Made by a program: the position numbers and the translations under genes | Shown here: positions 6,230 to 41,687 of the stretch, piece by piece | Position numbering within the stretch: the first letter of the stretch is position 1 | Layout: every line of letters starts with the position of its first letter | Notes under the pieces: model-generated | What the model was told of the DNA's origin: nothing | Database searches by the model: none | The model's input: only the letters and a program-made list of their open reading frames with translations | Assembly (NCBI RefSeq): GCF_900163565.1 | Contig: NZ_FUHU01000043.1 | Location: 1-64,000, forward strand | Length of the DNA: 64,000 nucleotides | DNA from: Agrococcus casei LMG 22410 | GTDB lineage: Bacteria; Actinomycetota; Actinomycetes; Actinomycetales; Microbacteriaceae | Direction of reading: 5' to 3'

Positions 6230-7411
6230 TCAGTCGTCGAGCAGCGCAGCCGCGAACATCGGGCGAGCAGCGTCTTCGCTCGGCGGGTGGAACAGCCCCG
6301 CAGTCGCATCGCGGAAGATGCGGCTCATCTCGTGGCTGTTCGAGAATCCGCTGCCGCCTGAGCACGCCAGCGCAGCCTCAGCCGTGCGCCTGGCGGTCGT
6401 CGAAGCATGGATGCGCGCAGCGACGATGCGGGGCGACCATTCGGCTCCGTGGTCGATCACCTCGTCGAAGTCGCGGCAGATCGAGTCGAGCTGGGCCGGC
6501 ACTGCCAGGTACTGCATGTGGGCATCCGCCAGCCGAACACGCGCCTCGGGAACCTCGGCGAACGAAGCACCCGCCTTCGCTGACTTGCGAGCCTTCAGGC
6601 CGGCAGCACCGAGCTCGAGTGCGCGCTTGGCGACTCCTGCATAGACCGATGCGACCAGCAGCTGGAAGTTGCACGTGATCGAGAACGTCAGCAGATCGGG
6701 GTGGCGGCCGGCCGGAATCCGGCGGGCAACACGATCGGGCCGCATCCGCACGTTGTCGAGACGCGTGGCGCGGCTGTGCGACGGGCGCATGCCGACGACG
6801 TCCCACGAGTCAGAGACCGTCACGCCTTCGGCCTCACGCTCGACGAAGCCGAACACGAGGGTCGGATTCTCGGGGTCGGTCTCGTCGAGGCCGTGCGTGA
6901 TGAGGCGGGTCCAGACCGGTGACAGCGACGTGAAGATCTTGGTGCCCGTCAGCAGGTATGACCCGTCGTCTTGCGGCACTGCCTTCGAGTTCGAGCCCTG
7001 CAGCACCCAGTCATTCGAGGGCTCGCTGATGCCGAATGCGAAGATCTCGCCCGCTGCTGCCTCTTCGAAGATGTAGCCCAGCGAAGTGTCGCCGCGATCG
7101 AACATGCCGCGCACGACGCCCGTGCAGAGCAGGTGCATGTTGATCGCGAGCGCAGTGCCGGGCGCTGCGGTCGCGAGCCGCTGCTGCAGCTTCGAGACCT
7201 GCTGCAGATTCAGCCCTCCGCCGCCGAACTCAGTCGGCACGAATGCCAGCAGATAGCCGCGCTCACGCAGTTCTTCGAGGTCTTCTGTGAAGAACGCGTT
7301 GTCGCGGTCGTACACAGCGGCACGCTCGCGGAATCTCTCGAGCAGGTCGTCGGGCAGATACTGCTCGGCAAGCTCGCGGTGGCGGGTCTCTCGATCGACG
7401 GCGTCAGTCAT
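6230..7411 (-). CDS. Acyl-CoA dehydrogenase family flavoprotein
   Basis: FAD enzyme of 393 residues. The order fits the family: helical N-terminus, a FAD-binding middle with FGISEPSNDWVLQ and a beta domain (LTGTKIFTS), then a helical C-terminal domain ending in SGGSGFSNSHEMSRIFRDA. The typical catalytic Glu near the end was not identified with certainty, so it may be an atypical dehydrogenase or flavin monooxygenase of the same fold. ATG at 7411 overlaps the ketosynthase stop as ATGA. It is the last gene of a chain metN-metI-metQ-ligase-ketosynthase-dehydrogenase and probably acts on the thioester made by the two preceding enzymes. Confidence 0.85.
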   Translation of the reverse strand: MTDAVDRETRHRELAEQYLPDDLLERFRERAAVYDRDNAFFTEDLEELRERGYLLAFVPTEFGGGGLNLQQVSKLQQRLATAAPGTALAINMHLLCTGVVRGMFDRGDTSLGYIFEEAAAGEIFAFGISEPSNDWVLQGSNSKAVPQDDGSYLLTGTKIFTSLSPVWTRLITHGLDETDPENPTLVFGFVEREAEGVTVSDSWDVVGMRPSHSRATRLDNVRMRPDRVARRIPAGRHPDLLTFSITCNFQLLVASVYAGVAKRALELGAAGLKARKSAKAGASFAEVPEARVRLADAHMQYLAVPAQLDSICRDFDEVIDHGAEWSPRIVAARIHASTTARRTAEAALACSGGSGFSNSHEMSRIFRDATAGLFHPPSEDAARPMFAAALLDD

Positions 7412-8661
7412 AGTGAACCTTTCTGTGCGTGGGTGAGCAGCAGCGCTGCGTTGTGGCCTCCGAAGCCGAACGACGTCGACAACACGGTGTCGACCTGCTG
7501 CTTGCGGGCGGTGCCAGAGATGAAGTCGAGGTCGAACTCAGGCAAGTCGAGGTTGAGGGTCGGCGGCAGCAGCCCGGTGCGCAGCGACTGCACCGCGATG
7601 ACCGCTTCGACGACGCCAGATGCCCCGAGCAGATGCCCTGTCGACGACTTGGTCGCGGTGATCGGCACAGCAGCGAGCCGCTCGCCGAACACTGCCGCGA
7701 GCGCCTTCGCCTCAGCGGCATCGCCAGCGGGCGTCGAGGTGCCATGGGCGTTGATGTGGCCTACGTCGTCGGCAGTCATGCCGGCGTCGGCCAGGCCCTC
7801 GCGAACCGCCTGTGCTGCTCCGCGGCCCTCGGGATGCGGTGCGGTCGGGTGGTGTGCGTCACTCGATGACCCGAAGCCCGAGAGCACGGCTAGCGTCTCA
7901 GCGCCTCGTGCTGCGGCAGCGTCATCAGACTCGAGCAGCACTGCCGCGGCACCCTGCGACATCACGAAGCCGGATCGATTGCGATCAAAGGGCATGCTCG
8001 CGGCCTCTGGCTGCTCTTCATAGCCCGCCGCGAGCGCACGCATGTTGGCGTTCGACGAGAGGTGCACGGGGCCGAGGCAGTCTTCCATGCCGACCACGAG
8101 CACGGCGTCTGCGTACCCGTGGCGGATGCGGCGCATCCCCTCTCCGAGTGCGACTGCGCCACTGGCGCACGTTGCCGAGACTGCCTGAGCAGCACCGCGG
8201 ATGCCGTGGCGCTGGCTCAGCAGCGCTGCGGCCGAGTCGGGGGCTCCGTGCATCGACAGCGTCAGCGGCACTCCCCGTGCACCGCGGGAGTCGTAGGCAC
8301 GCGTGGCCTGCTGCATCGCGTCGACGGGACCCGAGCCGGTTGCGGCGATCACCGAGACGCGATCGGGGTTCCAGGGCAGTGCTCGAGAGGCAACGCCAGC
8401 GTGGCCGAGTGCTTCGTCGGCAGCCGCAATGGCCCAGTGCTGCACCGGGCTCACACGCTTGGCGAGCGTGCGGTCGAGAATCGTCTCGGTGTCGAATCCG
8501 CGCACCTGGCCGCCGATGCGCACCGGCAGCTGTGCGAACGCATCGCCTTCGAGCACGCGAATCGCGCTGCGCCCCTCGACAACCGACTGCCACAGCGCAT
8601 CGGCCGTGAGCCCGCTGGGAGTCACAGCACCGAGACCGGTGATCACCACCTGTCGTGTCAC
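7408..8661 (-). CDS. Beta-ketoacyl-ACP synthase, KAS II (FabF)-like
   Basis: Condensing enzyme of 417 residues, the usual FabF length. The Cys-His-His set is intact: Cys165 in SATCASGAVA, His306 in INAHGTSTP and His343 in SSTGHLLGASG. GTG at 8661 overlaps the stop of the upstream ligase. No acyl carrier protein, ketoreductase or dehydratase gene is nearby, so this is not a housekeeping fatty-acid cluster. It more likely performs one decarboxylative condensation in a dedicated pathway with the flanking ligase and dehydrogenase. Product unknown. Confidence 0.9.
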   Translation of the reverse strand: MTRQVVITGLGAVTPSGLTADALWQSVVEGRSAIRVLEGDAFAQLPVRIGGQVRGFDTETILDRTLAKRVSPVQHWAIAAADEALGHAGVASRALPWNPDRVSVIAATGSGPVDAMQQATRAYDSRGARGVPLTLSMHGAPDSAAALLSQRHGIRGAAQAVSATCASGAVALGEGMRRIRHGYADAVLVVGMEDCLGPVHLSSNANMRALAAGYEEQPEAASMPFDRNRSGFVMSQGAAAVLLESDDAAAARGAETLAVLSGFGSSSDAHHPTAPHPEGRGAAQAVREGLADAGMTADDVGHINAHGTSTPAGDAAEAKALAAVFGERLAAVPITATKSSTGHLLGASGVVEAVIAVQSLRTGLLPPTLNLDLPEFDLDFISGTARKQQVDTVLSTSFGFGGHNAALLLTHAQKGSL

Positions 8662-10163
8662 AGTCGCTCCCCTCCCCCGTCGGCCACAAGCGCAGCGACG
8701 GCATGCCTGCGAACCTTTCCTCCAACGGTACGCGCGAGCTCTGACACGCGATACCAGCGCAGCGGAACAAACTGCGGAGCAAGCCTCTCAGCAGCCACTG
8801 CCTGCAGCGATGGCTTGGTCGCTGAGCCTTCGATCACGAGTGCCACGGCTGAGCCGAGCGCCCGATCTGGCAGTGCGACGGCACAAGCGGCATCGACTCC
8901 GGCGACGCCCTCGAACACGCGCTCGACCTCAGTCAAAGCCACCTTGTGACCGCCGGTGATGGCGATATCTCCGGCGCGGCCGACCAGCTCGAGTCGCCCG
9001 TCGACCACGCGCGCCTGATCGTGCACGGTCGCCCATCCGCCTTCGCCCTGCAGGACCTCGTCGGTCGTGCCCGAGAGGTAGCCGTCTGAGCAGGCGTCAG
9101 CCAGCACCCAGAGCTCGCCGAGTTCGCCGTCGGCAACCGCCGCCCCTGCGTCATCGCGCACCTCGACCGCGATGCCCTCGTAGACGCCGATGCTCGTGCC
9201 GTCGCCGTCGCGGCTGTCGCCGATGAAGCCGATCTCGGCTGCTCCGTAGTAGCTGATGAGGCGTGCGTCGGGTATGGTCTCAGCGGCCGCCTGCCTGATG
9301 GATGCCGGCAGGTTTGCTCCGCCAGTCACCAGCACCGACAGCGATGCGAATCGCTCCGGGCTGCGTCGTGCTGCGACCGCGAGCGCCTGCAGAATCGCCG
9401 GCACGGCAACGATGCGCGTGATGCTCTCGCGTTCGATGCGCCGCCCGGCATCGATTGCGTCGAAGCGGTCTGCAACATGCACTGTGCCGCCGGTTGCCAG
9501 GCACTCGATCACGGCATAGAGGGTGAGGCTGTATGACAGCGGGCCGGGTGCGAGTGTGGCCACACCCGGCAGCGGCTCGAGATAGGCGCTCGACACTGCG
9601 ACGTTGGCCCGGTACTGCGCTCGGGTCTTCAGAAACGCCTTCGGGTCGCTCGTGGTGCCCGACGAGAACAGCATCAGGAAGGCTTCGTCACCGTCGCGCA
9701 CAGTCGGCGCGGTGGCTGCCGCAGCAGACCCTTCAGCACCCACGAAGTCGGCCAGCGAGATCACTGTGCCGCCCCATCCGCGCTGCTGCAGAGCCGGTGC
9801 GAGCTCGGCCGAATCGCTCACGACCAGGCCGATTCCGGTCGACTCGATCACCCGAATGCGGTGCTCGAGCGGCCAGCGCGGGTCGATCACGGCACTCACT
9901 GCGCGGTAGCCCGCAAGCGACGCCACGATGCGCGCTGCGTGGAATGCCGAATCGATGCTGACGGCCGTCACGGGAATGCCGCCGGTCTCGGGAGCAGCAG
10001 CGGGCGGATGCGCCTGTGCGGCATGCAGAGCGTCGACAGCGGCGATCGTTCGGCGGGACGTCTCGGCCAGCTCGGAATACGTCAGCTGATCGCCGCCGCC
10101 CGCAACGGCCACGAGGTCAGGGCGCTCAGCTGCCGTGCGAAGCACAGCCTTCGTCATCGGCAC
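8658..10163 (-). CDS. AMP-forming acyl/aryl ligase (ANL superfamily)
   Basis: Adenylating enzyme of 501 residues that activates a carboxylic acid as an acyl-AMP and probably transfers it to CoA or a carrier. Visible motifs: the phosphate loop FSSGTTSDPKAFLK near residue 190, YYGAAEIGF (core motif A5), and the hinge region LVGRAGDIAITGGHKV with TVGGKVRR near the C-terminus, carrying the likely catalytic lysine. GTG at 10163 follows GGGAGGGCGCTC; an ATG lies two codons later. The stop overlaps the ketosynthase GTG. It starts 30 bp after metQ on the same strand, which places it in the importer operon. Confidence 0.88.
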   Translation of the reverse strand: MPMTKAVLRTAAERPDLVAVAGGGDQLTYSELAETSRRTIAAVDALHAAQAHPPAAAPETGGIPVTAVSIDSAFHAARIVASLAGYRAVSAVIDPRWPLEHRIRVIESTGIGLVVSDSAELAPALQQRGWGGTVISLADFVGAEGSAAAATAPTVRDGDEAFLMLFSSGTTSDPKAFLKTRAQYRANVAVSSAYLEPLPGVATLAPGPLSYSLTLYAVIECLATGGTVHVADRFDAIDAGRRIERESITRIVAVPAILQALAVAARRSPERFASLSVLVTGGANLPASIRQAAAETIPDARLISYYGAAEIGFIGDSRDGDGTSIGVYEGIAVEVRDDAGAAVADGELGELWVLADACSDGYLSGTTDEVLQGEGGWATVHDQARVVDGRLELVGRAGDIAITGGHKVALTEVERVFEGVAGVDAACAVALPDRALGSAVALVIEGSATKPSLQAVAAERLAPQFVPLRWYRVSELARTVGGKVRRHAVAALVADGGGERL

Positions 10164-10193
10164 GAGCGCCCTCCCCTCTTGATTGCTCTCAGC

Positions 10194-11006
10194 CTAGAAG
10201 GCTGCGGGCTCTTCGACCTCTTCGAGCATGGCGCGCACAGCGTCGCTCGTGTATGCGTCGATCAGCGCCTGCGTCGCAGGGCTGTCGACGTCGTCCTTGT
10301 GCACAGCGAGGCCCACCGCGAAGCGCGTGTCGTCTTCGACGAGCAGACCGTCTTCGTAGGGGCGAAGATCCATCTGCCTGGCGTACGACGGCACGTTGAA
10401 GACCATGTCGGCCTCTTCGTATGCGGTGTTGAGCTGCGGCAGACCGACCTCGGTGATCTCGAAGTCGTGCGGGTTCTCGATGATGTCCTGCTGCGTCGCC
10501 GTGTACTGCTCGACCTCAGGGTCAAGCGTGATGAGGCCTGCGTCAGCGAGCATCTGCAGCGCGCGTCCGCCGTTCGACGAGTCGTTGGAGATCACGATGC
10601 TTGCACCGTCGGGCAGCTCTTCGATCGACGCGTATTCGCGCGAGTAGAACGCGACGACGACGACGTAGATCGGCTGCACGAGCACGAGGTTGCCGCCGTT
10701 CTCTTCGTTGTAGTCCTCGAGGAAGTCCTCGTGCTGCACGAAGTTCGCGTCGATCTCCTGGTTGTTGAGCAGCACGTTCGGCTGCACGTAGTCGCTGACC
10801 TCGACCGGCTCGATCTCGTAGCCGTCTGCGATCTCTTCGGCGGCGACTTCGGTCAGTGTCGACATGGGAGGCACGGTGACGGCAACCTGCAGCGTCTCGA
10901 CGCCGCCCTCGGTGCCGTCAGCGCCTTCTTCGCCGCCAGTCGCGCATCCGACTGTCAGTGCTGCGAGCGTGATCGCAGTGGCTCCTGCGAGGAGTCGAAG
11001 CTTCAT
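10194..11006 (-). CDS. metQ: MetQ/NlpA-type substrate-binding lipoprotein
   Basis: Extracytoplasmic lipoprotein of 270 residues that delivers a ligand to the adjacent permease. A lipoprotein signal peptide ends in LTVGC with Cys21 as lipidation site, followed by an acidic glycine-rich linker. The NlpA fold is suggested by QPNVLLNNQEIDANFVQHE and PNDSSNGGRALQ-like segments (VISNDSSNGGRAL). ATG at 11006 is preceded by AGAAAGGAAGACCCC; an upstream in-frame codon at 11033 would precede the signal peptide. The family mainly binds methionine, but linkage to an acyl-metabolism module leaves another ligand possible. Confidence 0.88.
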   Translation of the reverse strand: MKLRLLAGATAITLAALTVGCATGGEEGADGTEGGVETLQVAVTVPPMSTLTEVAAEEIADGYEIEPVEVSDYVQPNVLLNNQEIDANFVQHEDFLEDYNEENGGNLVLVQPIYVVVVAFYSREYASIEELPDGASIVISNDSSNGGRALQMLADAGLITLDPEVEQYTATQQDIIENPHDFEITEVGLPQLNTAYEEADMVFNVPSYARQMDLRPYEDGLLVEDDTRFAVGLAVHKDDVDSPATQALIDAYTSDAVRAMLEEVEEPAAF

Positions 11007-11061
11007 TGGGGTCTTCCTTTCTGGTGGCCGCATTGCCGGCCGGGTCTATCGCGTGTGGGGT

Positions 11062-11754
11062 CTAGCGTCTGTCGAGTGCCTTCGAGAGCCTGTGGCCCCC
11101 GACCTGCATGAGCTGCACGAGCACGACCACGATGATCACGGTCGTGTACATGAGCACGTAGTCGTACTCCTGGTAGCCGTAGCGCATGGCGAAGTCGCCG
11201 AGTCCGCCACCGCCGACGACGCCGAGCACCGTCGAATACGAGATGAGGCTGATCGCAGCCGACGTCAGTGCATAGACAAGGCCCGAGCGCGATTCGACCA
11301 GCAGGTACATCCACACGGTCTGCAGCGTGCTGGCGCCCATCGATCGGGCGGCCTGCAGGATGCCCTGGGGAATCTCGAGCAGGATCTGCTCGGCGAGGCG
11401 CGCATACAGGGCGACTGCGACGAAGCACATGGGGAAGGTCGCGGCTGCCGTGCCGAAGCTCGTGCCGTAGACCGCACGCGTCAGCGGAATCAGGAACACC
11501 ACGAACAGCAGGAACGGAAACGACCGCACGACCGTGACGTAGAGGTTCGAGAGCTGGAACAGCCACGGCATGGGCCGCACGCCGCCGGGTCGGGTGACGA
11601 AGATGGTGACGCCGACGGGCAGGCCGATCAGCACTGCGGCCAGCAGCGAGAAGCCCAGCATGTAGCCGGTCTCGCCGAGGGCCTCGACGATGGCGCCGCC
11701 GTTTCGCTGCAGCGCTTCGACGATCTCGTCGAACAGGTCTTTCACGAAGTTCAT
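11062..11754 (-). CDS. metI: MetI-type ABC transporter permease
   Basis: Membrane subunit of 230 residues with about five transmembrane helices. The ABC permease loop is visible as ILQAARSMGASTLQTVW. The early NAIVEALGETGYMLGFSLL-like segment is typical of MetI. The start overlaps the metN stop as ATGA, and the gene ends 56 bp before metQ. It forms the translocation pore with MetN. Confidence 0.9.
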   Translation of the reverse strand: MNFVKDLFDEIVEALQRNGGAIVEALGETGYMLGFSLLAAVLIGLPVGVTIFVTRPGGVRPMPWLFQLSNLYVTVVRSFPFLLFVVFLIPLTRAVYGTSFGTAAATFPMCFVAVALYARLAEQILLEIPQGILQAARSMGASTLQTVWMYLLVESRSGLVYALTSAAISLISYSTVLGVVGGGGLGDFAMRYGYQEYDYVLMYTTVIIVVVLVQLMQVGGHRLSKALDRR

Positions 11755-12488
11755 GACTCGAGCACCTGCTTGGCGCGGTCGAGGTAGCTCGCGCCCTGCT
11801 GCGTCTCGCCGTGCACGACCTGCACGATGTCGCGCAGCTCGCCGCGCTCGAGGATCACTGCGCGGTCGCAGACGGCCTTGACGGCTGCGAGCTCGTGGGT
11901 GACCAGCACGATCGTGGTGCCGAAGTCACGGCGGGTTCGCTCGAGCAGGCTGAGGATGCCGGCGGTCGTGCGCTCGTCGAGGGCGGATGTGGGCTCGTCT
12001 GCCAGCAGCAGCGTCGGCTGGGTGATGAGGGCGCGGGCGATGGCCACCCTCTGCTTCTGTCCGCCCGAGAGCTGTGCGGGATAGTGCTTGGCACGGTCTG
12101 CGAGCCCGACGTAGTCGATCAACTTGGCGACGAGTTCGGGGTCGCGGCGTCGCTGCAGCCGCAATGGCAGTTCGATGTTCTGCTCGACGGTGCGGTTCGA
12201 AAGCAGATTGAAGCCCTGGAACACCATGCCGATGCGGTGACGGATGCGCCGCCTGCCTCGTTCGCCGAGCGTTGCGGGGTCGACGCCGTCGAGCAGCACG
12301 GTGCCCTCTGTCGGCTGTTCGGTCGCGTCGAGGAGTCGCAGCATGGTCGACTTGCCGGCGCCGGATTCGCCGACGATGCCGACGATCTCGCCGTGCTCGA
12401 TCGAGAGGTCAATCGACTGCAGTGCTGTTGTCGCCTTGTAGCGCACGGTGACGTCTCGCAGAACTGCTGCGTGACCTGGCTTTGCCAC
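11751..12488 (-). CDS. metN: MetN-type ABC transporter ATPase lacking the regulatory domain
   Basis: ATP-hydrolysing subunit with Walker A GESGAGKST, signature [15 protein letters not shown] and Walker [13 protein letters not shown]. At 245 residues it stops soon after the ATPase core (EQ...SYLDRAKQVLES). Canonical MetN proteins are about 340 residues and carry a C-terminal NIL/ACT-like domain that inhibits transport when methionine binds. Its absence suggests no such feedback or a different substrate. GTG at 12488 follows AGGAGACTAA. First gene of the six-gene operon; divergent from the OhrR-type regulator. Confidence 0.9.
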   Translation of the reverse strand: MAKPGHAAVLRDVTVRYKATTALQSIDLSIEHGEIVGIVGESGAGKSTMLRLLDATEQPTEGTVLLDGVDPATLGERGRRRIRHRIGMVFQGFNLLSNRTVEQNIELPLRLQRRRDPELVAKLIDYVGLADRAKHYPAQLSGGQKQRVAIARALITQPTLLLADEPTSALDERTTAGILSLLERTRRDFGTTIVLVTHELAAVKAVCDRAVILERGELRDIVQVVHGETQQGASYLDRAKQVLES

Positions 12489-12741
12489 TTAGTCTCCTAG
12501 ACCCTGTATATATACCGCGGTCAAGCTTAGCGCCTGCAAACAATATTCGCACCGCATTCGCTGCGCAGCAGCCGAACAGCAACTTGGACACTTGTCATGG
12601 CAACATGAAGTTGCGTCGGGTGATATCGAGCTCGATGCACTTCTCGCGCTTTTTCTGCCAGAAAACACGCAAAACGTGTGGATTGTGCACCAACCATCGG
12701 CAAGAAACTGCTTGGCGTGCATATGATGACAACGGCTGCCC

Positions 12742-12756
12742 TTGAGTGTCATTCAA
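12742..12756. promoter_or_regulatory. Possible OhrR operator upstream of its own gene
   Basis: TTGAGTGTCATTCAA is an imperfect palindrome (6 of 7 arm bases pair) just before the AGGAG site of the OhrR-type gene. Known OhrR operators are AT-rich palindromes with a TTGAATT-like core, so this is plausible but weak. The rest of the 283-bp divergent region holds the metN promoter area, including TGTATATATACCGCGG near 12506. Confidence 0.3.
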
Positions 12757-12771
12757 AAACTAGGAGAAACG

Positions 12772-13251
12772 GTGCCCCAGAACACCACCCTTTCGGAGCA
12801 ACAGGACTCCCTGCTGCTCGAGAATCAGGTGTGCTTTGCCATCACGCTGACATCTCGAACCGTGATTGCGGCATACAAGCCGCTGCTTGAGCCCCTCAAG
12901 CTGACGCATCCGCAGTACCTCGTGATGCTGACCCTGTGGGAGGGCGAGCCGATGTCGATCAGGGCCCTCAGCGACCGCCTGCGCCTCGACCCGGGCACGC
13001 TGTCGCCGCTGGTCAAGCGACTCGAGCTGGCCGGCTACGTCACGCGTCCGCGCAACACATCAGACGAGCGTGCGCTCGCAATCGCGCTGACTGACGAGGG
13101 CCGTGCCCTCAAGGAGCGTGCACGCCACGTCAATGACGAAGTGAAGGCGCAGTTCGACATCACGACTGAAGAGCTCAGCGTTCTGCACAAGACGCTGATG
13201 CGCCTGCAGGAGAAGACTGCCAAGGCTGCCCGCACACCTGCTGTCGCTTGA
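12772..13251 (+). CDS. OhrR-type MarR-family regulator with sensing cysteine
   Basis: DNA-binding repressor of 159 residues. The N-terminus LLLENQVCFAIT aligns with the OhrR redox-sensing region, giving Cys21 as the reactive cysteine. YKPLLEPLKLTHPQYLVML and the winged HTH (LSDRLRLDPGTLSPLVKRLE, then SDERALAIALT) follow the family closely. OhrR proteins are inactivated by organic hydroperoxides. GTG at 12772 after AGGAGAAACG is chosen over an upstream TTG. No ohr peroxidase gene is adjacent; the divergent neighbour is the MetNIQ/acyl operon, the likely target. Confidence 0.88.
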   Translation: MPQNTTLSEQQDSLLLENQVCFAITLTSRTVIAAYKPLLEPLKLTHPQYLVMLTLWEGEPMSIRALSDRLRLDPGTLSPLVKRLELAGYVTRPRNTSDERALAIALTDEGRALKERARHVNDEVKAQFDITTEELSVLHKTLMRLQEKTAKAARTPAVA

Positions 13252-13675: not shown

Positions 13676-14596
13676 TTATGCCGCTTCCGCGAGGGTAGCG
13701 GACGTGGTCTCCGCGTAGGCGGTCTTGTAGTTGTTCGGGGTGATCTGGCCGATCGCGGAGTGGCGCCTGCGGGTGTTGTAGCGGTTCGCCCATCGGAACA
13801 CGGCCCGGTAGGCGGTGGCCTGGTCCGGGAACGCCGCCTGCCCTTCGAGGAGCTCCCGCTTGAGTGTGGCGTTGAAGCTCTCCGCGAGTGAGTTGTCGGC
13901 GCTCGTGCCCACCGCACCCATGGACTGGACGATGTTGAGCTGCTCGCAGAGGGCTGCGTAGGCCTTCGAGGCGTAGACGCTGCCGTGGTCGCTGTGGAAG
14001 ATCGCGCCGGCCAGCGTCCCGCGGTCACGGGCCGCAGCGCGCAGGGCGTCTTCGACGAGCCCTACGCGCATGTGGTCGGCGACCTGCCAACCCGCGAGCT
14101 TCCGTGACCCGAGGTCGATGCAGGTCGCGAGATACAGGTTCGACCCGTCCGCGATCGGGAGGTAGGTGATATCGCCCACGTATCGGCGGTTCGGCTCACC
14201 AATGGAGAAGTCCCGCTCGATCAGGTCGGGGAAGCGGCGTCCGGACTGGTCCGGGATCGTGGTCCTCACCCGTCGACGCAGCCGGATCCCCGCGAGCTGG
14301 TGTTCCCGCATCACCCGGGCGACCCGCTTGTGATTCACCCGCCCGGCCGCCGCGACGCCGTCGTTGAGGTCGGCGGTGATCCGCGGCGCCCCATAGGCGC
14401 GATCGCCACCCTGCGCGGGGTCCTGCAGCACACGGATTCGCGCCGCCAGCGCGGCGTCTGCGGCGGCCCTCGCGGCCCGTCCCGGGGCCGCCGCCAGCCA
14501 GGCGTAGAACGACGACCTCGCGATCTGAATGACCTCACACAACCGCTTCACGCCGTAGGCGTCCTTGTGATCCTCAACGAACTGGAAGCGGTTCAC
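13676..14596 (-). CDS. IS3-family transposase OrfB (DDE integrase)
   Basis: Catalytic subunit of 306 residues. It has an N-terminal HTH_21-like segment (YGVKRLCEVIQIARSSFYAW) and an rve core with the DDE set: Asp in YVGDITYLP, Asp in IFHSDHGSVYAS and Glu in ADNSLAESFNATLK. Translation may start at GTG 14596 overlapping the OrfA stop. Alternatively a -1 frameshift may give an OrfAB fusion, because the OrfB frame stays open well upstream of 14596. The sequence does not decide between them. Confidence 0.9.
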   Translation of the reverse strand: MNRFQFVEDHKDAYGVKRLCEVIQIARSSFYAWLAAAPGRAARAAADAALAARIRVLQDPAQGGDRAYGAPRITADLNDGVAAAGRVNHKRVARVMREHQLAGIRLRRRVRTTIPDQSGRRFPDLIERDFSIGEPNRRYVGDITYLPIADGSNLYLATCIDLGSRKLAGWQVADHMRVGLVEDALRAAARDRGTLAGAIFHSDHGSVYASKAYAALCEQLNIVQSMGAVGTSADNSLAESFNATLKRELLEGQAAFPDQATAYRAVFRWANRYNTRRRHSAIGQITPNNYKTAYAETTSATLAEAA

Positions 14597-14922
14597 CAGT
14601 TCGTCTCCCCGGCGAAATACTTCGCCGCCTGACGAAGGATGTCCCGCTCCGTCTGAAGCTTCAGCTTCTCCGCTTCCAGCCTCGCGTTCTCGGCCTCCAG
14701 CCGGAGGACCTTCGCCGCCTGTGACTCCGCCCGCGCCGGCGCGGGCGTCGACGCTGTGCCGGTGGTCGTGCTCCCCGAGCCGTGCTTCTCGACCCACTCC
14801 CGCAGCGCACCGCGGGAGATCCCCAGATCCGCCGCGATGCCCTTCAACGTCGCACCCGGCGTGGACGCGAACAAGTCCACCGCCCGCTGCCGGAACTCGT
14901 CCGTGTAGTTCTTCCTTGCCAT
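14593..14922 (-). CDS. IS3-family transposase OrfA
   Basis: Protein of 109 residues with the IS3 OrfA helix-turn-helix (NYTDEFRQRAVDLF, then GIAADLGISRGALREWV) that binds the element ends. A leucine-zipper-like helix follows (VLRLEAENARLEAEKLKLQ). The TGA overlaps the GTG at the start of OrfB. Confidence 0.92.
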   Translation of the reverse strand: MARKNYTDEFRQRAVDLFASTPGATLKGIAADLGISRGALREWVEKHGSGSTTTGTASTPAPARAESQAAKVLRLEAENARLEAEKLKLQTERDILRQAAKYFAGETNW

Positions 14923-14973
14923 CCCTTGGATTCTCGCTTCCCCAGCAACGTGCTGGAATCAGCGTGTCCAAGA

Positions 14974-15693
14974 TCAGGGGTCAAGCGCCCTGTTGGGCTC
15001 GCCCTCTTCGATGATGCCGCCATCTGCCATCACGACGAGGCGGTCGCCGACACTGCGTGCGAACTCCATCTCGTGTGTGACGACCATCATGGTCATGCCC
15101 TCTTCAGCGAGTTCCTGCATGACGGCGAGGACCTCGAGGCCGACTTCAGGGTCGAGAGCGGATGTGGGCTCGTCAAAGAGCATCACCTCAGGGTCCATGG
15201 CGAGGGCGCGGGCGATCGCCACACGCTGCTGCTGGCCACCTGAGAGACGAGCCGGGTGTGAGTCGTACTTGTCGGAGAGCCCCACGCGGTCGATCAAAGC
15301 GCGCGACCGTTCGTCGGCCTCGGATTTCGAGCGCCCGAGCGCCCGACGTTGTGCGAGCGAGACGTTCTCGAGGGCTGTCAGGTGCGGAAAGAGGTTGAAT
15401 GACTGAAACACCATGCCGGCAGTGCGTCGCAGCTCTTCGAGCTCGCGGGACGTGTGCTTCTGGCTCGAGTCGATCGTGTGGGTGCCGATGCGGATCACAC
15501 CCGAGTCGGGCTGCTCGAGCAGGTTCGTGCAGCGCAGGAAGGTGCTCTTGCCAGCACCCGACGGGCCGATGATCGCTACGACTTCGCCCTCTGCGACGTG
15601 CAGCGAGACGTCGTCGAGCACGACGTTGTCTCCATACGCCTTATAGACGTTGTCGAGCGCAACCTTCGGCTGCACAGTGGTGTGGTCAGTCAT
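14974..15693 (-). CDS. Polar amino acid ABC transporter ATPase, C-terminus replaced by IS sequence
   Basis: GlnQ-like ATPase of 239 residues with Walker [10 protein letters not shown], signature [15 protein letters not shown] and Walker [16 protein letters not shown] at 15693 follows AGGAGCACGAATCG. The natural end (usually about ten further residues after GEP) is missing: the IS3 terminal repeat supplies the last three codons (LDP) and the stop. The catalytic core is complete, so the protein may fold. The permease and binding-protein genes expected downstream are absent, leaving an orphan ATPase. Confidence 0.88.
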
Positions 15694-17074: not shown

Positions 17075-18322
17075 TCAGCTCAGCTGCAACCGATCCGTCG
17101 CAAACGAGTGCTCGCCAGTCTCGTCCTGCCAGTACACAAGCGTGGGTGCCGACTCGAGGTTCTTCTTCGGATTCTCCAGAACCACAAGCGTCTCTTTGGC
17201 GGTCTCGATGAGCGAAGTGAAGCCTTTCATGATGGCGTTCTCGCTCTCCAGAGTCGAAACATACGCAGCCTTCAGCGCCTCAATCTCGCGCTGCGTTGCA
17301 GTGCCTCGACCGCCGGCGAAGCCGGGCAGCGCACGTTCAGCCCAGTTCATGTCGCTCAGCTTCTCTTCGCGAATTGTGATCTCGTCGCGAAGTGACTCTG
17401 ACCGCTGCAGCAGGTACTCCCAGAACTGGGAATCCTCGCGAATCTTCTTCGTGAGACGCTCTACCGATGCTTCGACCGACTTCGGATTCTCCTGCATGTC
17501 GACGCATAGGCGCAGATGAGCGATACGCAGGCTCAAGAATGACGACAGCATGGCGCTGTGGGCGTCATAGTTCGCCCGCTGCACGTGGCCGGGGTCATCC
17601 ATCGAGGTCGGAATCTGGCTCGTGAGCGCAAGGTGCCGGAAGCGCTCCGCAAGCTGAAACACGTCACGCTCTGCAAGCGACAGTCGAATCAGCATGTCGT
17701 TCGAGAAGGCTCCAGAGAGCTCGTACTGCTGGTGAATCTCGTCAACAATGGCGGATGCGGCGAGCAGCTGCCCTGCGTGCGTCGCCTCGAACCGTGCGAT
17801 CGCGGTGTCAACAGCACCCTTGATGACGTCAAGCTTCTGGTCGACCTTCTCAAACTCTTTGAGAATAATGGCGGTCGAGATCGCCTGAACGGCAAGCATC
17901 GGCGCGACGACCGGCAACGAACTGGCAACGGGAATGAACGGCGCCTGCGCGAGGATGCCTCCGGCTCCCACCTGCGCGCTGCCGAAACCGGCTCCGATCT
18001 GCATCAACGTGGACGGATTGGCCGTCGCAACAAACAGGGTCGACGAGAGTCCCGCAGAAAGCGCGGTTGCGCCAGCAGCCGACCCAGAAACCACGAGCGA
18101 CTTCATGCTCTGTGGCGAGACCGCTCGAGCACCCGAAGCGTGGGTCTCAGTCGAGAGGAATCCGCCATGCAGATTGGCGACAATCTGATCCTTCAACTCA
18201 CCCTGAAACTCGAGGAGTGCGATCTCTGCATCACCGCCATGGAACCGGCGGACCGCGACCTCCGCTGCGGTCTGCGACTCGGTGGCTGCAACATCATTGT
18301 CATGCGATTCAGGGTTGCTCAT
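17075..18322 (-). CDS. Unknown protein with long hydrophobic stretch, fourth gene of the helicase/PLD module
   Basis: No family recognised. In 415 residues three parts are visible. Residues 1-70 are polar and acidic. Residues about 75-155 are an unusually long Gly/Ala/Ser/Val-rich hydrophobic stretch (SGSAAGATALSAG, VGAGGILAQAP, VVAPMLAVQAIS). Residues 156-390 are mainly long charged helices with coiled-coil character (FEKVDQKLDVIKGA, SVERLTKKIRED). This recalls helical membrane-inserting proteins, but that is inference from composition. ATG at 18322 overlaps the helicase stop by 14 bp, so the two are cotranslated. It is probably part of the same defence module, possibly the membrane effector. 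Confidence 0.8.
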   Translation of the reverse strand: MSNPESHDNDVAATESQTAAEVAVRRFHGGDAEIALLEFQGELKDQIVANLHGGFLSTETHASGARAVSPQSMKSLVVSGSAAGATALSAGLSSTLFVATANPSTLMQIGAGFGSAQVGAGGILAQAPFIPVASSLPVVAPMLAVQAISTAIILKEFEKVDQKLDVIKGAVDTAIARFEATHAGQLLAASAIVDEIHQQYELSGAFSNDMLIRLSLAERDVFQLAERFRHLALTSQIPTSMDDPGHVQRANYDAHSAMLSSFLSLRIAHLRLCVDMQENPKSVEASVERLTKKIREDSQFWEYLLQRSESLRDEITIREEKLSDMNWAERALPGFAGGRGTATQREIEALKAAYVSTLESENAIMKGFTSLIETAKETLVVLENPKKNLESAPTLVYWQDETGEHSFATDRLQLS

Positions 18323-21300
18323 GGACGTCCTCTCCTGCTCTGGATCCTAGCCAATTTCGCGGTGCGCTCAGGTCGATCGATGGAACTTCATGACCCGTCA
18401 CTCCCCTGGCTGCGAGCAGCTCAAGCATGTCCTCTTGTCGCGGCTGTCCGAGCGTCAGCCGATACAGCACCAAATCACGCTTGAGCTGCGCATATCGCGA
18501 CTCGTCGATGCTCAGCGGGAAGTTCGTGAGCACCCGATGAATGCGTGAAGACCCCGGGTACATCCACCACGGCGCAAAGTCGCCCTTCCCACGGCTGGCT
18601 TCAACGGCAGCGCCGAACGCTGCCTCCCAAGGGCTGACTTCGTCACACGACAGCACATCCGCCCAATGCTGTTCAGCGACGTTCTTGCGAATCGCATGAC
18701 CAGCAAAGCGATTCACTCGACCTTCGCGCTGCTCGAAGTCAATAGGGCTCGACGGCAAGTTCCAGTGCACGACAGCATGGCTCCACCAGTGAAAGTCGAT
18801 GCCCTCCTGCCCTGCACTTGTCGAAGTGAGCACGAACGGGGCAAAGGGGCTGTTGAAAGCCGCGCGCACGTTGGCTTGACGCTGTTCTCCAGAGTCTGAC
18901 GTGGAGCGAACGTTAGCGTCGCCGTATCGAAGCGCCCAACGCGCGCCGATGTCGATAGGCGTTCGCTCGGCATCGACACCCCGTCCGCGGTAGTTGACGC
19001 GCTGCAGCCCCAGCACTTCGCTGGCTTGCTCAGCAACTGTCATGAGGGCCGCTCCATCGAGTTCATGACCGCCTCGGTCTTTGTGCAGCTGAAACAGGTA
19101 CTCATCCAGCACTGCCTGCAGGTTTCCATCGGCGCTGTATGACAGCACCTTCTGCCAGTACGGCCGATCCTCGAGTCCAGCGGCCTCATCGAGTGTGTTC
19201 AGCAGCACCACGGTCTCACCGCGATTGAACAGAGTGCGAAGCCCCTGAGCCAGCACAAATGCAGCTCCCCACAGCTCGCTGTTCGAAACGTGCGGGCCGG
19301 CAATGGTCCGAAGTGCACGATAGGCAGAGTTGCCTGGCGAGAATGCTGCAAGGTCGGGCAACCACCGGTGAGAGCTCTTGGCGGCGGCCCCAGACTTCCG
19401 CGCCATGGCGATGGCTTCCGTCATATGCTGCTGAAGCGCTGACTTCCACTTGGGTCGGCCATCGCCGAGTGTGAGCAGTGCCATTTTCGTGTTCTTCAGC
19501 TCAGAGGGCAGAGCCCCGGGCGCTCCGAAGAACGCATGCCATGCTTCGCCGGCGTCCTCTACAGGAAGCGACTGGCGAATGGCCTGCAACAGAGCGTCAG
19601 ACGATACGCGGCTGCCCTGGCGTCGTGCTGCCCGTACCGGATCCCCAAGATCAGCGATCCCCGGATGCGGCCAGAAGAGAGTCAGCGCTGACATCGACTG
19701 AGGTGCACCGGTGGCAGCCATCTTGTATTCGAGACCGTGCAGAGTCGATTCGTTGTCGGCGGCAGCACCGCCCTTGCGCGTGACTCGCATGCGCATGGCT
19801 TCGCGACTCACCAGAGCCGCAACCGATGTTGGCACTGCCGACCACGATGAGAAGACAACCTGCTTCGTCATTCCGTGCTCGTGCAAGGGCGCGTAGTTCG
19901 CGCCAGGCTCGAGGTACGGCATCGAGGGCGGCACCCAGATCGCCCGCCACCAGCCTTGCCCCACCGTCGCTTCAATGAAGGCGCGCAGCTTCGCGTTGCC
20001 AGCATCGACGGAAGCGCCGGGCTCCTGCACATCACACGGCAGCGACTGAGTCTGCGCGAGCAGCTGCTCAATGCTCGCCGCATCCTGTTCCAGCCGTTCT
20101 GTCACATCCTGTCCGAGCTTGTAGCCATCCATGTAGTTGGCGAAGTACGGCACCGACTTCCACCGATCAAGCTCTAGTGGCGAATCAACAGCATCGGCAA
20201 GCTTGCGCAGTCCCACCCAACCGAGCAGGTCATCCGAAGTCGGAGACTTGACGGCCAATGGTCGCTCCTGCACGAGGCTTTCGCCCTCTACGACCTCAGG
20301 TCGTTCTGCCCGCGTCATGAACGGCAGCAGCCTGTCTCGCACAGCCTTCGCCGCTGAAGCCACGTCTCCATCGCGCGTCAGCGCCCTGCGATACTCCTCC
20401 AAGGCATTGCGCACTGGCAGTTCTGCGCCAGGAGCTCCCCCGGCAAGGAATCGAACCACCGAAAGAAAATCTTTGTAGTGATCGCCCTCCTCATCGCCTC
20501 GCGTGAACGGCTTGTAGGGCGTCGCTGAGAGCAAGAGAACGCGAGCGTCGCCACGCTGAAACAGGTGCTGGGCCAGCTCGGCAGCTTCGCTGTCCTGAGT
20601 CGAATCCAGCAGATGCCTGAATCGCTGAAACTCGTCGAGAATGATCAGGTCGGGGCGAAGCGTCTCCACTCCAGCTTTCGCGAGCGCGTGCCGGAGCTCG
20701 GCAATCGAGTCCTGCACCGCATGCCAGATGTCGTCTGGAAGCTCCTGCGATTGAGCCAGGTCTATCCGCGACACCAGCGCCGTGAACCTCCCGAGTGCTC
20801 CGGTCTCGTCGGCAATTCGTCCGAAGGACTCCTCAATCTGCGGGTCAATCCCATGTTCTTCAAGGTCAGCGCGAAGGTTTGCAACGTGACGATCACGGAA
20901 TCGACCGACGTTGTCGATCCAACCGCGAAGCAGTCGCAGGATGCGCGTCCAGTCATCAGGGCTGGGCTGCAGCAGTCGCTCGAGCAGCAGTGCGATCAGT
21001 GCTCGCTCGTTGCCTTTGCCCTGCCTCATGCCGCCATTAGAGAACGACGTGCCCGGCGTGAATGAGACGAGATTGAGCTCGCCGGCTCCGGTCTGACGAC
21101 CTCGAGTCAGAGCACGTCCTTCTGTCGCCAGCATCGTGAGCCGTGTGTTGATCTCGGCCAGCCGATCGTCGCTGACATTGAGCCGTCGAATGTTTTGGCG
21201 GGCCAGGTCTTGATTGCTGCAGATGTAGACGACGTTGATGGGCTTGTCTGGCCGTTCAGCGCGCAACGCATCGATGGCATGAGCGATGACGCCTCGAGCC

Positions 21301-21464
21301 ACCACGCTCTTGCCGAGACCGGTCTCATCAGCCACGAGAAACCTGCCAGTGCGCCCGTCAGCAGTCGCAGCGACCTCACCATAAAACTGATGCGCGATGT
21401 GCAGCACGGTGTCACGCTGAAACTGCTTCAGCCCCCGCATGACGCGTTCAGCAGTCGTCGTCAT
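18309..21464 (-). CDS. Large SF2 helicase of a defence module
   Basis: ATP-dependent DNA translocase/helicase of 1051 residues. Motif I is VADETGLGKSVVARG (Gly-Lys at 51-52), motif II ILDEFQRF near 275, motif III LLLSATPYKPF near 313. The C-terminal RecA lobe shows TSTSAGQEGIDFHWW near 881 and QREGRVNRFAGH near 910. A roughly 450-residue insert separates the lobes, larger than in simple SNF2 enzymes. ATG at 21464 overlaps the PLD-like gene stop as ATGA. Same operon as the DUF6361-like and PLD-like genes. Confidence 0.92.
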   Translation of the reverse strand: MTTTAERVMRGLKQFQRDTVLHIAHQFYGEVAATADGRTGRFLVADETGLGKSVVARGVIAHAIDALRAERPDKPINVVYICSNQDLARQNIRRLNVSDDRLAEINTRLTMLATEGRALTRGRQTGAGELNLVSFTPGTSFSNGGMRQGKGNERALIALLLERLLQPSPDDWTRILRLLRGWIDNVGRFRDRHVANLRADLEEHGIDPQIEESFGRIADETGALGRFTALVSRIDLAQSQELPDDIWHAVQDSIAELRHALAKAGVETLRPDLIILDEFQRFRHLLDSTQDSEAAELAQHLFQRGDARVLLLSATPYKPFTRGDEEGDHYKDFLSVVRFLAGGAPGAELPVRNALEEYRRALTRDGDVASAAKAVRDRLLPFMTRAERPEVVEGESLVQERPLAVKSPTSDDLLGWVGLRKLADAVDSPLELDRWKSVPYFANYMDGYKLGQDVTERLEQDAASIEQLLAQTQSLPCDVQEPGASVDAGNAKLRAFIEATVGQGWWRAIWVPPSMPYLEPGANYAPLHEHGMTKQVVFSSWSAVPTSVAALVSREAMRMRVTRKGGAAADNESTLHGLEYKMAATGAPQSMSALTLFWPHPGIADLGDPVRAARRQGSRVSSDALLQAIRQSLPVEDAGEAWHAFFGAPGALPSELKNTKMALLTLGDGRPKWKSALQQHMTEAIAMARKSGAAAKSSHRWLPDLAAFSPGNSAYRALRTIAGPHVSNSELWGAAFVLAQGLRTLFNRGETVVLLNTLDEAAGLEDRPYWQKVLSYSADGNLQAVLDEYLFQLHKDRGGHELDGAALMTVAEQASEVLGLQRVNYRGRGVDAERTPIDIGARWALRYGDANVRSTSDSGEQRQANVRAAFNSPFAPFVLTSTSAGQEGIDFHWWSHAVVHWNLPSSPIDFEQREGRVNRFAGHAIRKNVAEQHWADVLSCDEVSPWEAAFGAAVEASRGKGDFAPWWMYPGSSRIHRVLTNFPLSIDESRYAQLKRDLVLYRLTLGQPRQEDMLELLAARGVTGHEVPSIDLSAPRNWLGSRAGEDVHEQP

Positions 21465-23242
21465 GCCCCGCCTCGCTTCGTCATCGCGTAAGCGTCGCGC
21501 ACCGCAGACCAGAGTTCATCGAACCCTTCGGGCAGAATCTCAGCTGCCTGCTGATCGTCAGATGCGATGTATTCGATGATTCGCTCCACATCCGCAATCG
21601 CGTCGGTGCCATAACCGAGAGCCTTTGCGAGTGCCTCCATCAGGCCAGCACTCTCACCTGAAGCGGCTGCAAAGCGACCGAACACTCCATCGCCAATTGC
21701 TGCTTCTGCTGCAGTACCGAAGCCGGCGAGCTCAAGCATCATCGTCAGCAGCCGCAAGAATGACGCCCGATCGGTGATGTGCTCGCTCAGGACTGCCGTG
21801 CGTCGACGCTCGAAATCGCCCAGGAGTCTCGCGAGCAGAATCGTCCGGCGAGTGACCGAACCGTTCTTGGCCGTGACCAGGATGAACGGCGTCACCTGCT
21901 CAAGGGGAACCTCAGCAAAGGTATGGGCGTCCTCTTCGCGGGCAGGAATCACGCCTGCAACGACATTTGCGGCCCGCAGCATCTGCCATTCGATTGTGAC
22001 GCCGGGTGAATCCGCACTCTCGTTGTCACTCCACACCGAGACATCACACGGACCTTCCCCACGCAGTCTCATGTGCACGGGCGAAGCAGCGATCGCACGG
22101 AGCATCTGCTCCAGCCGGTGCTCGGCTTCCTCTTGTTCTGTCGAGGTCTCGCCACCGGTTGGCGCGTACTCTTCTTTGAGCTGATCGAGGGCTTCAAGCG
22201 TGCTCTTGACGCCGAACTGCTTCACAGGCCCAACCAACTCGACCATGACCTCGGTGTTGTCACGAAACGCTGCTCCAGTTGCGTTGGCCGAGCCCAACAG
22301 CACGCGTGACTGCTTGCGAGGCAGGTCGTGCACGATCACCTTCGCGTGCAGTCCAACGAGCGGTTTCCTTTGCCATTCTGAGACGGCCGAATCTGCATCT
22401 TCAAGGTTGGCCGCATCATCGAAGATGTAGCTGCTCAGTCCCCCCAACGACTCCGGCCGCAGTCGCTCAAATGATTCTGGGCGCGAAATCACGTGTGTCT
22501 CGCGGCGACAATCCTTGCGCAGCAAGCGCAGGCCATCGTCAGACAGAAATGGCGACACGATCAGCGATCGCGTCCCACTCGTGTCGATAGTCGAATTCGC
22601 ACCCGGCCCGTACGCATGGAATCGAAGTTCACGCGCGCCATCCGGCAGTTCCCACAAGATCTGTTCCCACTGATCGGCAAGCTCGTTCAGCCGCGCATGC
22701 CGCGTCCCTTCCAGTGAGTGGATCATCAGATCCGGCAGCCGACGCAGCAGATCAGCCATCGGCAGATTCTGCTCACGCACCCTCTCATCCGAAACGTCAC
22801 CGGGCGCCCCGTCGAGTTGAACAACGACATCCCAGCTTCGATCCTGCGTCAGGTTGCGGCTCGAGCAGATGAATCGAAAACGTGTCTCCCCATCGTCTGA
22901 CTCGAAGCGCAAGAACCATACCTTTGGGTGAAACAGCCCGCGTCGCTGAGCAACCTGATGCACAGAGCGCTCAAGCAGCGCAACGAGGCTCGAGTGCTGA
23001 CCCATGCTGATCTGCCCTGCCTGGGCGAAGATGTCGACCTGCTGTTCTGTTCGTCGGAGCGCATCGAGAATGCTCAGAGCGTCGTCGCTGGACTCCACAC
23101 GCTTGGCAGCGAGGGCCAGTGGCACGGTCAGCGCAGTTTCAAGATCGAGGGTAAAGGTCGTTCCGACTCCATGAGCAAGCGTGAATCCTGCTGGGGGCGC
23201 CAGCGCTTCGGTGAGCGCGAGACGATCCTGCGGGTCAAGCAT
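21461..23242 (-). CDS. Phospholipase D-like domain protein of a defence module
   Basis: Protein of 593 residues with two half-sites of the PLD fold: His105-x-Lys107 with Asn130 (LFHPKVWFLRF, CSSRNLTQDRS), and a second GLHAKVIVHD near 297 with GSANATGAAF near 316. In defence systems this fold usually acts as a nuclease and often accompanies SF2 helicases. The usual downstream acidic residue of each HKD is present only loosely, so catalysis is likely but unproven. ATG at 23242 overlaps the DUF6361-like stop by 8 bp (ATGCTTGA). Frame-extending codons further upstream lie inside that gene. Confidence 0.88.
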   Translation of the reverse strand: MLDPQDRLALTEALAPPAGFTLAHGVGTTFTLDLETALTVPLALAAKRVESSDDALSILDALRRTEQQVDIFAQAGQISMGQHSSLVALLERSVHQVAQRRGLFHPKVWFLRFESDDGETRFRFICSSRNLTQDRSWDVVVQLDGAPGDVSDERVREQNLPMADLLRRLPDLMIHSLEGTRHARLNELADQWEQILWELPDGARELRFHAYGPGANSTIDTSGTRSLIVSPFLSDDGLRLLRKDCRRETHVISRPESFERLRPESLGGLSSYIFDDAANLEDADSAVSEWQRKPLVGLHAKVIVHDLPRKQSRVLLGSANATGAAFRDNTEVMVELVGPVKQFGVKSTLEALDQLKEEYAPTGGETSTEQEEAEHRLEQMLRAIAASPVHMRLRGEGPCDVSVWSDNESADSPGVTIEWQMLRAANVVAGVIPAREEDAHTFAEVPLEQVTPFILVTAKNGSVTRRTILLARLLGDFERRRTAVLSEHITDRASFLRLLTMMLELAGFGTAAEAAIGDGVFGRFAAASGESAGLMEALAKALGYGTDAIADVERIIEYIASDDQQAAEILPEGFDELWSAVRDAYAMTKRGGA

Positions 23243-39688: not shown

Positions 39689-39765
39689 TGTGGTTCCTTA
39701 CAGATGGGTTGGTCATTGCATGGTCGTGACGGCCCAGCGAGCACGCCGGGCCACAGAAGCGGGGC

Positions 39766-41669: not shown

Positions 41670-41687
41670 TCTTCTACTCCTTCGTAG

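Follow-up and report, generated by a model that had tools for sequence, protein, structure and literature searches.

In the passages of the literature that deal with them, BirA of Staphylococcus aureus represses both bioY and yhfS-yhfT, the latter a putative ligase operon (PMC6391492, PMC7235819), and the BirA-regulated ligase-thiolase pair is given putative functions only (PMC6391492, PMC7235819, PMC11089781). An arrangement of EcfA-EcfT-BioY-ligase-thiolase is found in five of five Azospirillum records read and in Streptantibioticus cattleyicolor, where it lies beside bioB (TIGR00433, 380 bits) and a BioD-like gene. The subject of this report is a locus of Agrococcus casei LMG 22410 (Microbacteriaceae) with a comparable plan. 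It lies in a 64,000-nt stretch of contig NZ_FUHU01000043.1, called the window below, and comprises six genes on the minus strand, running from 12488 down to 6230 in the order metN-metI-metQ-ligase-KAS-flavoprotein. The products are a MetNIQ-type importer, an AMP-forming ligase (LIG) of the kind that makes thioesters with coenzyme A (CoA) or acyl carrier protein (ACP), a FabF-type beta-ketoacyl synthase (KAS) and a flavoprotein of the acyl-CoA dehydrogenase fold.

Our overall reading, to which we assign a probability of about 0.35, is that these genes form an operon for importing, activating and elongating a small carboxylic acid, perhaps of vitamin type. At the level of modules, a sequence of import, thioester formation and C2 elongation is reasonably probable. 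The class of substrate is a more tentative matter, and a sulfur-bearing vitamin-type acid, such as a side-chain-shortened catabolite of biotin or lipoate that is lengthened back, can be put forward only as a possible candidate. The proteins are all members of known superfamilies, and importer, ligase and condensing enzyme follow the plan of the BioY-linked operons. What is new is that the actinobacterial version, which keeps the ligase, has exchanged both transporter and condensing enzyme and has added a flavoprotein. No description of an importer-ligase-KAS pathway of this form was found in the openly licensed literature, in keeping with the initial annotation of the window, which knew of none.

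Gene organization

The initial annotation had taken the six genes for one operon serving import of a precursor, its activation, one condensation and one oxidation. The observation itself is confirmed and that reading of it is partly supported. The open reading frames (ORFs) of the window reproduce the gene order and the overlapping ends of the last three genes, and MetN and MetI prove to overlap as well; each overlap (MetN/MetI, ligase/KAS and KAS/flavoprotein) is 4 bp, while MetI and MetQ are separated by 28 bp and MetQ and the ligase by 30 bp. Neither an ACP nor a reductase is among the six genes, as had been stated. Gene calls by script used GC-position scoring, which can miss small genes. 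Between positions 4500 and 14500, terminator-like sites do not exceed those of shuffled sequence (0 versus 3.4 expected), and there is one promoter-like match (1.0 expected), which lies upstream of the six-gene set. With no terminator-like site and the sole promoter-like match upstream, nothing argues for a break at the MetQ-ligase junction, and the six genes could be transcribed as a single unit.

A fixed ligase-ketosynthase pair

When GTDB contigs were scanned with the window ligase, 80 loci were retained from 90 relatives; their ligases are 49-68% identical, and they come from Brevibacterium, Leucobacter, Microbacterium, Cryobacterium, Arthrobacter, Gulosibacter, Pseudoclavibacter and other genera. 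Nine wider stretches from family genomes bring the total to 89; six of these have too little sequence past LIG for KAS and flavoprotein counts, leaving 83. A bit-score filter on rows preceded these counts and those of importer orientation and of redox neighbours. The neighbourhood survey that the initial annotation had proposed gave a simple answer: all 83 loci have KAS directly behind LIG in the same orientation, and in every one the partner of LIG is a FabF-type KAS, not a thiolase. The flavoprotein gene comes next in 74, and the remaining nine have the pair without it. LIG and KAS are thus a fixed pair, and the gene arrangement is more than chance. Around the trio, no extra gene is found repeatedly in different genera; the other neighbours vary by genus.

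The ligase itself is rare. It was found in 10 of 150 family genomes (E 1e-40), and among 396 genomes of the phylum (E 1e-45) only in the window genome and one thiolase-linked relative. Phage records gave no match at E 1e-20, and 72,556 plasmid records gave seven LIG matches at E 1e-40, six from Rhizobium and one from Azospirillum. Plasmid matches to KAS are FabF-type genes at about 42% identity or less.

Both enzymes keep their catalytic residues, and the anatomy fits the order of import, activation and one condensation that the initial annotation had proposed. K175 and K483 of LIG are present in every ortholog aligned there, and C165, H306, K338 and H343 of KAS in 84-85 of 86 rows, the remaining rows not being aligned at those positions. 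KAS passes the FabF subfamily cut-off of PRK07314 (396 bits, cut-off 387) and scores 405 bits against TIGR03150 (cut-off 493.75). It resembles FabF (KAS II) in keeping the Cys-His-His set and the Lys; it differs from FabF in being a paralog that shares an operon with a ligase, the paralogy following from the one other FabF-like gene of the genome, which is 41% identical to it. FabF-type synthases are expected to run in the condensing direction, and the LIG-KAS pair should therefore lengthen a chain. If so, the pair would build a chain and not degrade one.

Kinship with biotin-transporter-linked ligases

Among NCBIfam families the best match to LIG is PRK07638, at 181 bits (cut-off 518). The same model is the nearest ligase-specific one for four further window-type and BioY- or thiolase-linked ligases scanned, all below cut-off; BioY-linked ligases score 336 bits (Azospirillum) and 216 bits (Streptantibioticus). 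A tree of 40 ligases included 19 of window type, 12 BioY- or thiolase-linked (from Azospirillum, Streptantibioticus, Rhizobium and genome G157) and nine others. The first two sets group together at 100/100 against the nine, an outgroup that is small, partly long-branched and mostly selected for its resemblance to the second ligase of the window; YhfT was not included. The clade to which LIG belongs is probably that of YhfT.

The likeness to the BirA-regulated YhfT-YhfS operons known from Bacillus and Staphylococcus and to the EcfA-EcfT-BioY-ligase-thiolase operons lies in a ligase of the same clade (YhfT standing outside the tree) followed by a condensing enzyme of the thiolase superfamily whose gene overlaps that of the ligase. 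In the Azospirillum and Streptantibioticus operons, moreover, importer genes precede the ligase, as they do in the window. Unlike the BioY-linked operons, the window has MetNIQ for EcfA-EcfT-BioY, a FabF-type KAS for the thiolase and the extra flavoprotein, and it has neither a BioY gene nearby nor the BioQ-like box discussed below.

A sensor-less MetNIQ importer

The importer shares with canonical MetNIQ an NlpA-family lipoprotein, a BPD permease and an ATP-binding cassette (ABC) ATPase in metN-metI-metQ order. The fold of the binding protein is shared too: the predicted MetQ structure, with a predicted local distance difference test score (pLDDT) of 87.9, matches MetQ/NlpA folds with best Z of 28-29, a match that says nothing about the ligand. 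Unlike canonical MetNIQ, the window importer lacks the NIL domain and all three proteins fall under curated cut-offs: MetN scores 220 bits against TIGR02314 (cut-off 499.7), MetI 162.5 bits against PRK10782 (cut-off 212) and MetQ 142.6 and 136.4 bits against two curated NCBIfam models (cut-offs 374 and 228.85). The initial annotation was right that MetN has no C-terminal sensing domain. Pfam finds no NIL match in it or in eight of eight further subtype proteins scanned, whereas 12 of 12 canonical MetN proteins of the host family carry one; MetN is 245-258 aa long in all 14 subtype loci measured, versus 330-360 aa in all 12 of that family's canonical MetNIQ loci. By these sequence measures the window importer belongs to a separate, sensor-less MetNIQ subtype. 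The residues of the MetQ pocket were considered as a guide to methionine specificity. Their alignment splits the two subtypes, and nothing was concluded, since canonical actinobacterial MetQ, as we take it, likewise departs from the E. coli residues.

Subtype MetQ (above 200 bits, the next match scoring 141) occurs in seven of the 150 family genomes, and all seven are among the ten with LIG (Fisher 4e-10, ignoring kinship). In two of them the importer is remote from LIG, about 770 kb away in G121 and on a different contig in G051. In both of these unlinked loci (L112 in G121, L111 in G051), the NIL-less importer includes two MetQ genes in tandem. The subtype lies inside the LIG locus in 11 of the 89 loci. 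It is co-directional with LIG and upstream of it in the window, six Brevibacterium loci and one Leucobacter locus, and convergent in four (L094, L096, L097 and L098); the six Brevibacterium loci form one clade (100/100) and are therefore counted as one event. The genomes of 45 of the 80 GTDB loci entered the searches for bioB, BioY and MetQ, and 12 of these LIG-bearing genomes have subtype MetQ (above 240 bits), linked to LIG in seven and unlinked in five. The co-occurrence of importer and enzymes is thus not peculiar to one genome but recurs co-directional, convergent and unlinked. Sixteen genomes carried the subtype in a search at order level (396 genomes, E 1e-50): the window's, G049, four Brevibacterium and ten more from two genera.

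Redox neighbours and the divergent regulator

Three features had escaped the initial annotation: the kinship of LIG described above, a divergent OhrR-like regulator gene starting at 12742, and a linkage of the importer subtype to Ohr/OsmC-like genes. The linkage was counted in 28 importer loci, that is, 29 minus L196, whose contig ends before metI. In 19 of them metN has an Ohr/OsmC-like gene no more than 4 kb away (divergent in 15, on the same strand in four), LIG being rarer, with 12. Mycoredoxin genes stand near the importer in two loci (L097 and L098), and six of the 28 have no Ohr/OsmC-like, mycoredoxin or OhrR-like neighbour. In contrast to these surroundings, none of the 12 canonical MetNIQ loci has any of the three within flanks of about 3-4 kb. 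Both cysteines are kept in ten of ten Ohr-like proteins checked, and the eight scanned score above the Pfam OsmC cut-off and below the Ohr cut-off (53-70 versus 88.85 bits). In L189-L195, L197, L198 and L200-L203, stretches in which LIG is absent, a MetNIQ set of the NIL-less type sits beside Ohr/OsmC-like genes. No description of this importer-peroxidase pairing was found in the openly licensed literature. This second MetNIQ subtype, which has no sensor domain and is tied to genes of peroxide defence, is a caution against annotating such transporters as methionine importers.

The regulator of the window (P0007) scores 142.7 bits against the OhrR model NF052638 (cut-off 200), by far its best family, and carries LENQVCFA, which we take to be the N-terminal sensing and reactive-Cys context of OhrR (LxNQxCFA). 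OhrR-like homologs are also found near the LIG-KAS-flavoprotein trio in L080 and L084. Ohr peroxidases make use of lipoyl groups. Just past the regulator gene of the window stand an IS3-family transposase and, next to it, an ORF for a GlnQ/TcyN-like ATPase (13676-15693, minus strand).

The proposed pathway and its tests

In the proposed pathway, the NIL-less MetNIQ, a transporter by homology, would take up the acid and feed LIG, which would convert it by way of the acyl-AMP to a CoA or ACP thioester. KAS would then add a C2 unit from malonyl-ACP of housekeeping type II fatty-acid synthesis, and the flavoprotein would oxidise or reduce the product, with the divergent OhrR-like repressor placing the operon under thiol or peroxide control. 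A synthase would thereby serve in place of the thiolase, and MetNIQ in place of the BioY transporter. A vitamin-type sulfur acid is the first guess because the ligase is of a biotin-linked clade and the importer subtype stands beside Ohr-like peroxidases. The most specific version, that the OhrR-controlled importer brings in nor-biotin or nor-lipoate, that LIG-KAS restores the cofactor in organisms that do not make the vitamin, and that YhfT-YhfS does likewise in Firmicutes, we consider quite unlikely.

The window genome has BioY, with BioB not above cut-off. Biotin biosynthesis in the host can be ruled out: three of the 150 family genomes have bioB above its cut-off, and the ten with LIG are not among them. 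The 45 LIG-bearing genomes include 45 with BioY, 14 with BioB and 12 with subtype MetQ, and the last two never occur together (Fisher 0.0085), a point in favour of the main reading; within Brevibacterium, bioB is present in 0 of 7 genomes with the importer subtype and in 11 of 14 without it (Fisher 0.001).

That said, a number of observations weigh against a vitamin-type pathway fed by this importer. The bioB and subtype labels are clumped on the ligase tree (6 and 8 changes), so that their mutual exclusion is suggestive only. No BioY homolog was found among the ORFs of 93 loci, 90 with LIG and 68 of those longer than 12 kb (Azospirillum BioY query, best E 1.1). Every LIG-bearing genome tested has its own BioY (10 of 10 in the family, 45 of 45 reached through the loci), which rules out a replacement of BioY by MetNIQ in these genomes. 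Five Rhizobium records have thioesterase-ligase-thiolase with no annotated BioY nearby, and PRK07638, to which the ligases are nearest, is the YhfT family by our own assumption. The palindrome TGAACNNNGTTCA marks bioY in six of 14 loci (L157, L160, L163, L164, L166 and L169) and both bioB loci fetched (L104 and L105), and is likely to be a BioQ-like biotin operator of Microbacteriaceae; the exact box occurs in one of 97 regions upstream of LIG or MetN (L092) and not at the window, in a scan that covered this box only and left BirA-type operators outside. The divergent TetR gene of L092 is not of the bioY type. Finally, the stretches around the importer in the ten further order-level genomes contain neither LIG nor KAS, with flanks of about 7-10 kb per side (one side of L196 reaches 0.1 kb beyond MetQ). 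A confinement of the importer to LIG-bearing genomes is weakened by these ten, and importer and enzymes may be tied less closely than within a single pathway; the importer may not be exclusive to the LIG pathway.

Shared biotin regulation is not supported, TGAACNNNGTTCA preceding LIG or metN in L092 alone. In that locus, from Microbacterium aurantiacum, an exact TGAACACCGTTCA palindrome stands at position 2839, about 59 bp before the LIG start of LIG-KAS. TetR-like genes, judged by eye, lie beside several of the TGAACNNNGTTCA-marked bioY and bioB loci in Microbacteriaceae.

The looseness of the link bears on the claim that all six genes serve one pathway: the association of importer and enzymes recurs, and the importer is also found elsewhere without LIG in its flanks. 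A doubtful but possible alternative is that the locus joins two separable modules, a NIL-less importer for a redox or sulfur nutrient, kept with Ohr or OhrR, and an independent LIG-KAS-flavoprotein pathway that is merely its neighbour. The few LIG loci with an importer, the ten genomes just mentioned, the five of 12 importer-bearing LIG genomes in which the two are unlinked, and the greater frequency of Ohr-like neighbours than of LIG all point this way, as does a -10-like sequence (judged by eye) upstream of LIG as the first gene in many loci. Against it stand the co-occurrence of importer and LIG in seven of seven family genomes, two of them unlinked, their linkage in two orientations, and the 30 bp that part them on one strand in the window.

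The flavoprotein and other products

The loosest member of the six-gene set is the flavoprotein. At E 1e-30, 125 of the 150 family genomes have a homolog, in most cases a single copy, with identities of 40-53%, and neither LIG nor KAS stood beside it in 20 of 20 stretches examined. The initial annotation had called it an acyl-CoA dehydrogenase performing an oxidation. The name is right for the fold, and the reading as a dehydrogenase oxidation becomes doubtful: the nearest relatives are of monooxygenase type, and the gene is missing from nine of 83 loci. The nearest PDB entries are 5z8t/5gj7 (27% identity, Z 40.9 and 39.5) and KijD3 (27%, Z 38.0), versus mostly 15-21% identity and Z 37-39 for acyl-CoA dehydrogenases (medium-chain dehydrogenase, Z 38.4), so fold comparison alone does not decide between monooxygenase and dehydrogenase. 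By sequence, flavin monooxygenases and nitrososynthases are the closest solved relatives of this protein with a dehydrogenase fold. It shares its fold and highest identities (20-27%) with 5z8t, KijD3, DnmZ and DszC, which we take to be group D flavin monooxygenases, and is unlike them in scoring far under the cut-off with each of the 15 NCBIfam models matched. RDATAGLFHPP presumably occupies the place where dehydrogenases carry the catalytic Glu.

Such relatives recall the ligase-ketosynthase-monooxygenase logic that we assume for alkylquinolone synthesis, and an imported aromatic or acyl acid might be activated, condensed with malonyl and hydroxylated by the flavin monooxygenase to a specialised metabolite or signal. 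The nearest solved structure to LIG, 4-chlorobenzoyl-CoA ligase, and the patchy spread of LIG in family and phylum are consistent with this idea; the lack of any further gene recurring around the trio across genera and the nine loci without the flavoprotein make it unlikely. Salvage of exogenous fatty acids, in which LIG would act as an acyl-ACP/CoA synthetase and short imported acids would be elongated into lipids by the FabF paralog, is improbable: KAS does pass the FabF subfamily cut-off and the other FabF-like gene probably means that type II synthesis is available, but the Ohr and biotin-operon links go unexplained and MetQ/NlpA-type binding proteins are not known to import fatty acids.

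Features of the window

The genes of the locus are listed in Table 1. For the MetQ lipoprotein, the ATG at 11006 is probably a likelier start than 11033.

Table 1. Positions of the importer-ligase-ketosynthase locus and its divergent regulator in the window
Feature	Coordinates	Strand	Remarks
MetN-like ATPase without NIL/C-terminal sensing domain	11751..12488	-	GTG start, 245 aa; Pfam ABC_tran and overlapping AAA_21
MetI-like permease	11062..11754	-	Pfam BPD_transp_1; nearest PRK10782 MetI
MetQ/NlpA-family substrate-binding lipoprotein	10194..11033	-	Pfam Lipoprotein_9 (NlpA), 198 bits
LIG, AMP-forming acid-CoA/ACP ligase	8658..10163	-	Pfam AMP-binding; nearest NCBIfam PRK07638
KAS, FabF-type beta-ketoacyl synthase	7408..8661	-	Pfam ketoacyl-synt N and C; PRK07314
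Flavoprotein, acyl-CoA dehydrogenase fold	6230..7411	-	Pfam Acyl-CoA_dh domains, Acyl-CoA_dh_2 best
Divergent OhrR-like MarR regulator (P0007), candidate operon controller	12742..13251	+	NF052638 OhrR, 142.7 bits
Intergenic region between regulator and importer operon	12489..12741		Inverted repeats; without TGAACNNNGTTCA box

Elsewhere in the window, a second importer-plus-ligase operon (37338-42476, minus strand) encodes an SsuB/TauB-like ATPase, an SsuC/TauC-like permease, an enoyl-CoA hydratase and an acyl-CoA ligase whose nearest match is PRK06155; an additional ORF there resembles a solute-binding protein and has no NCBIfam match. A candidate defence trio resembling ZacC-ZacB-ZacA (991, 521 and 406 bits, PADLOC) occupies 18309-24446 on the minus strand, and adjoining it is a type I restriction-modification set consisting of an hsdR-like gene (24704-27820), hsdS (27817-29082) and hsdM (29079-31073).

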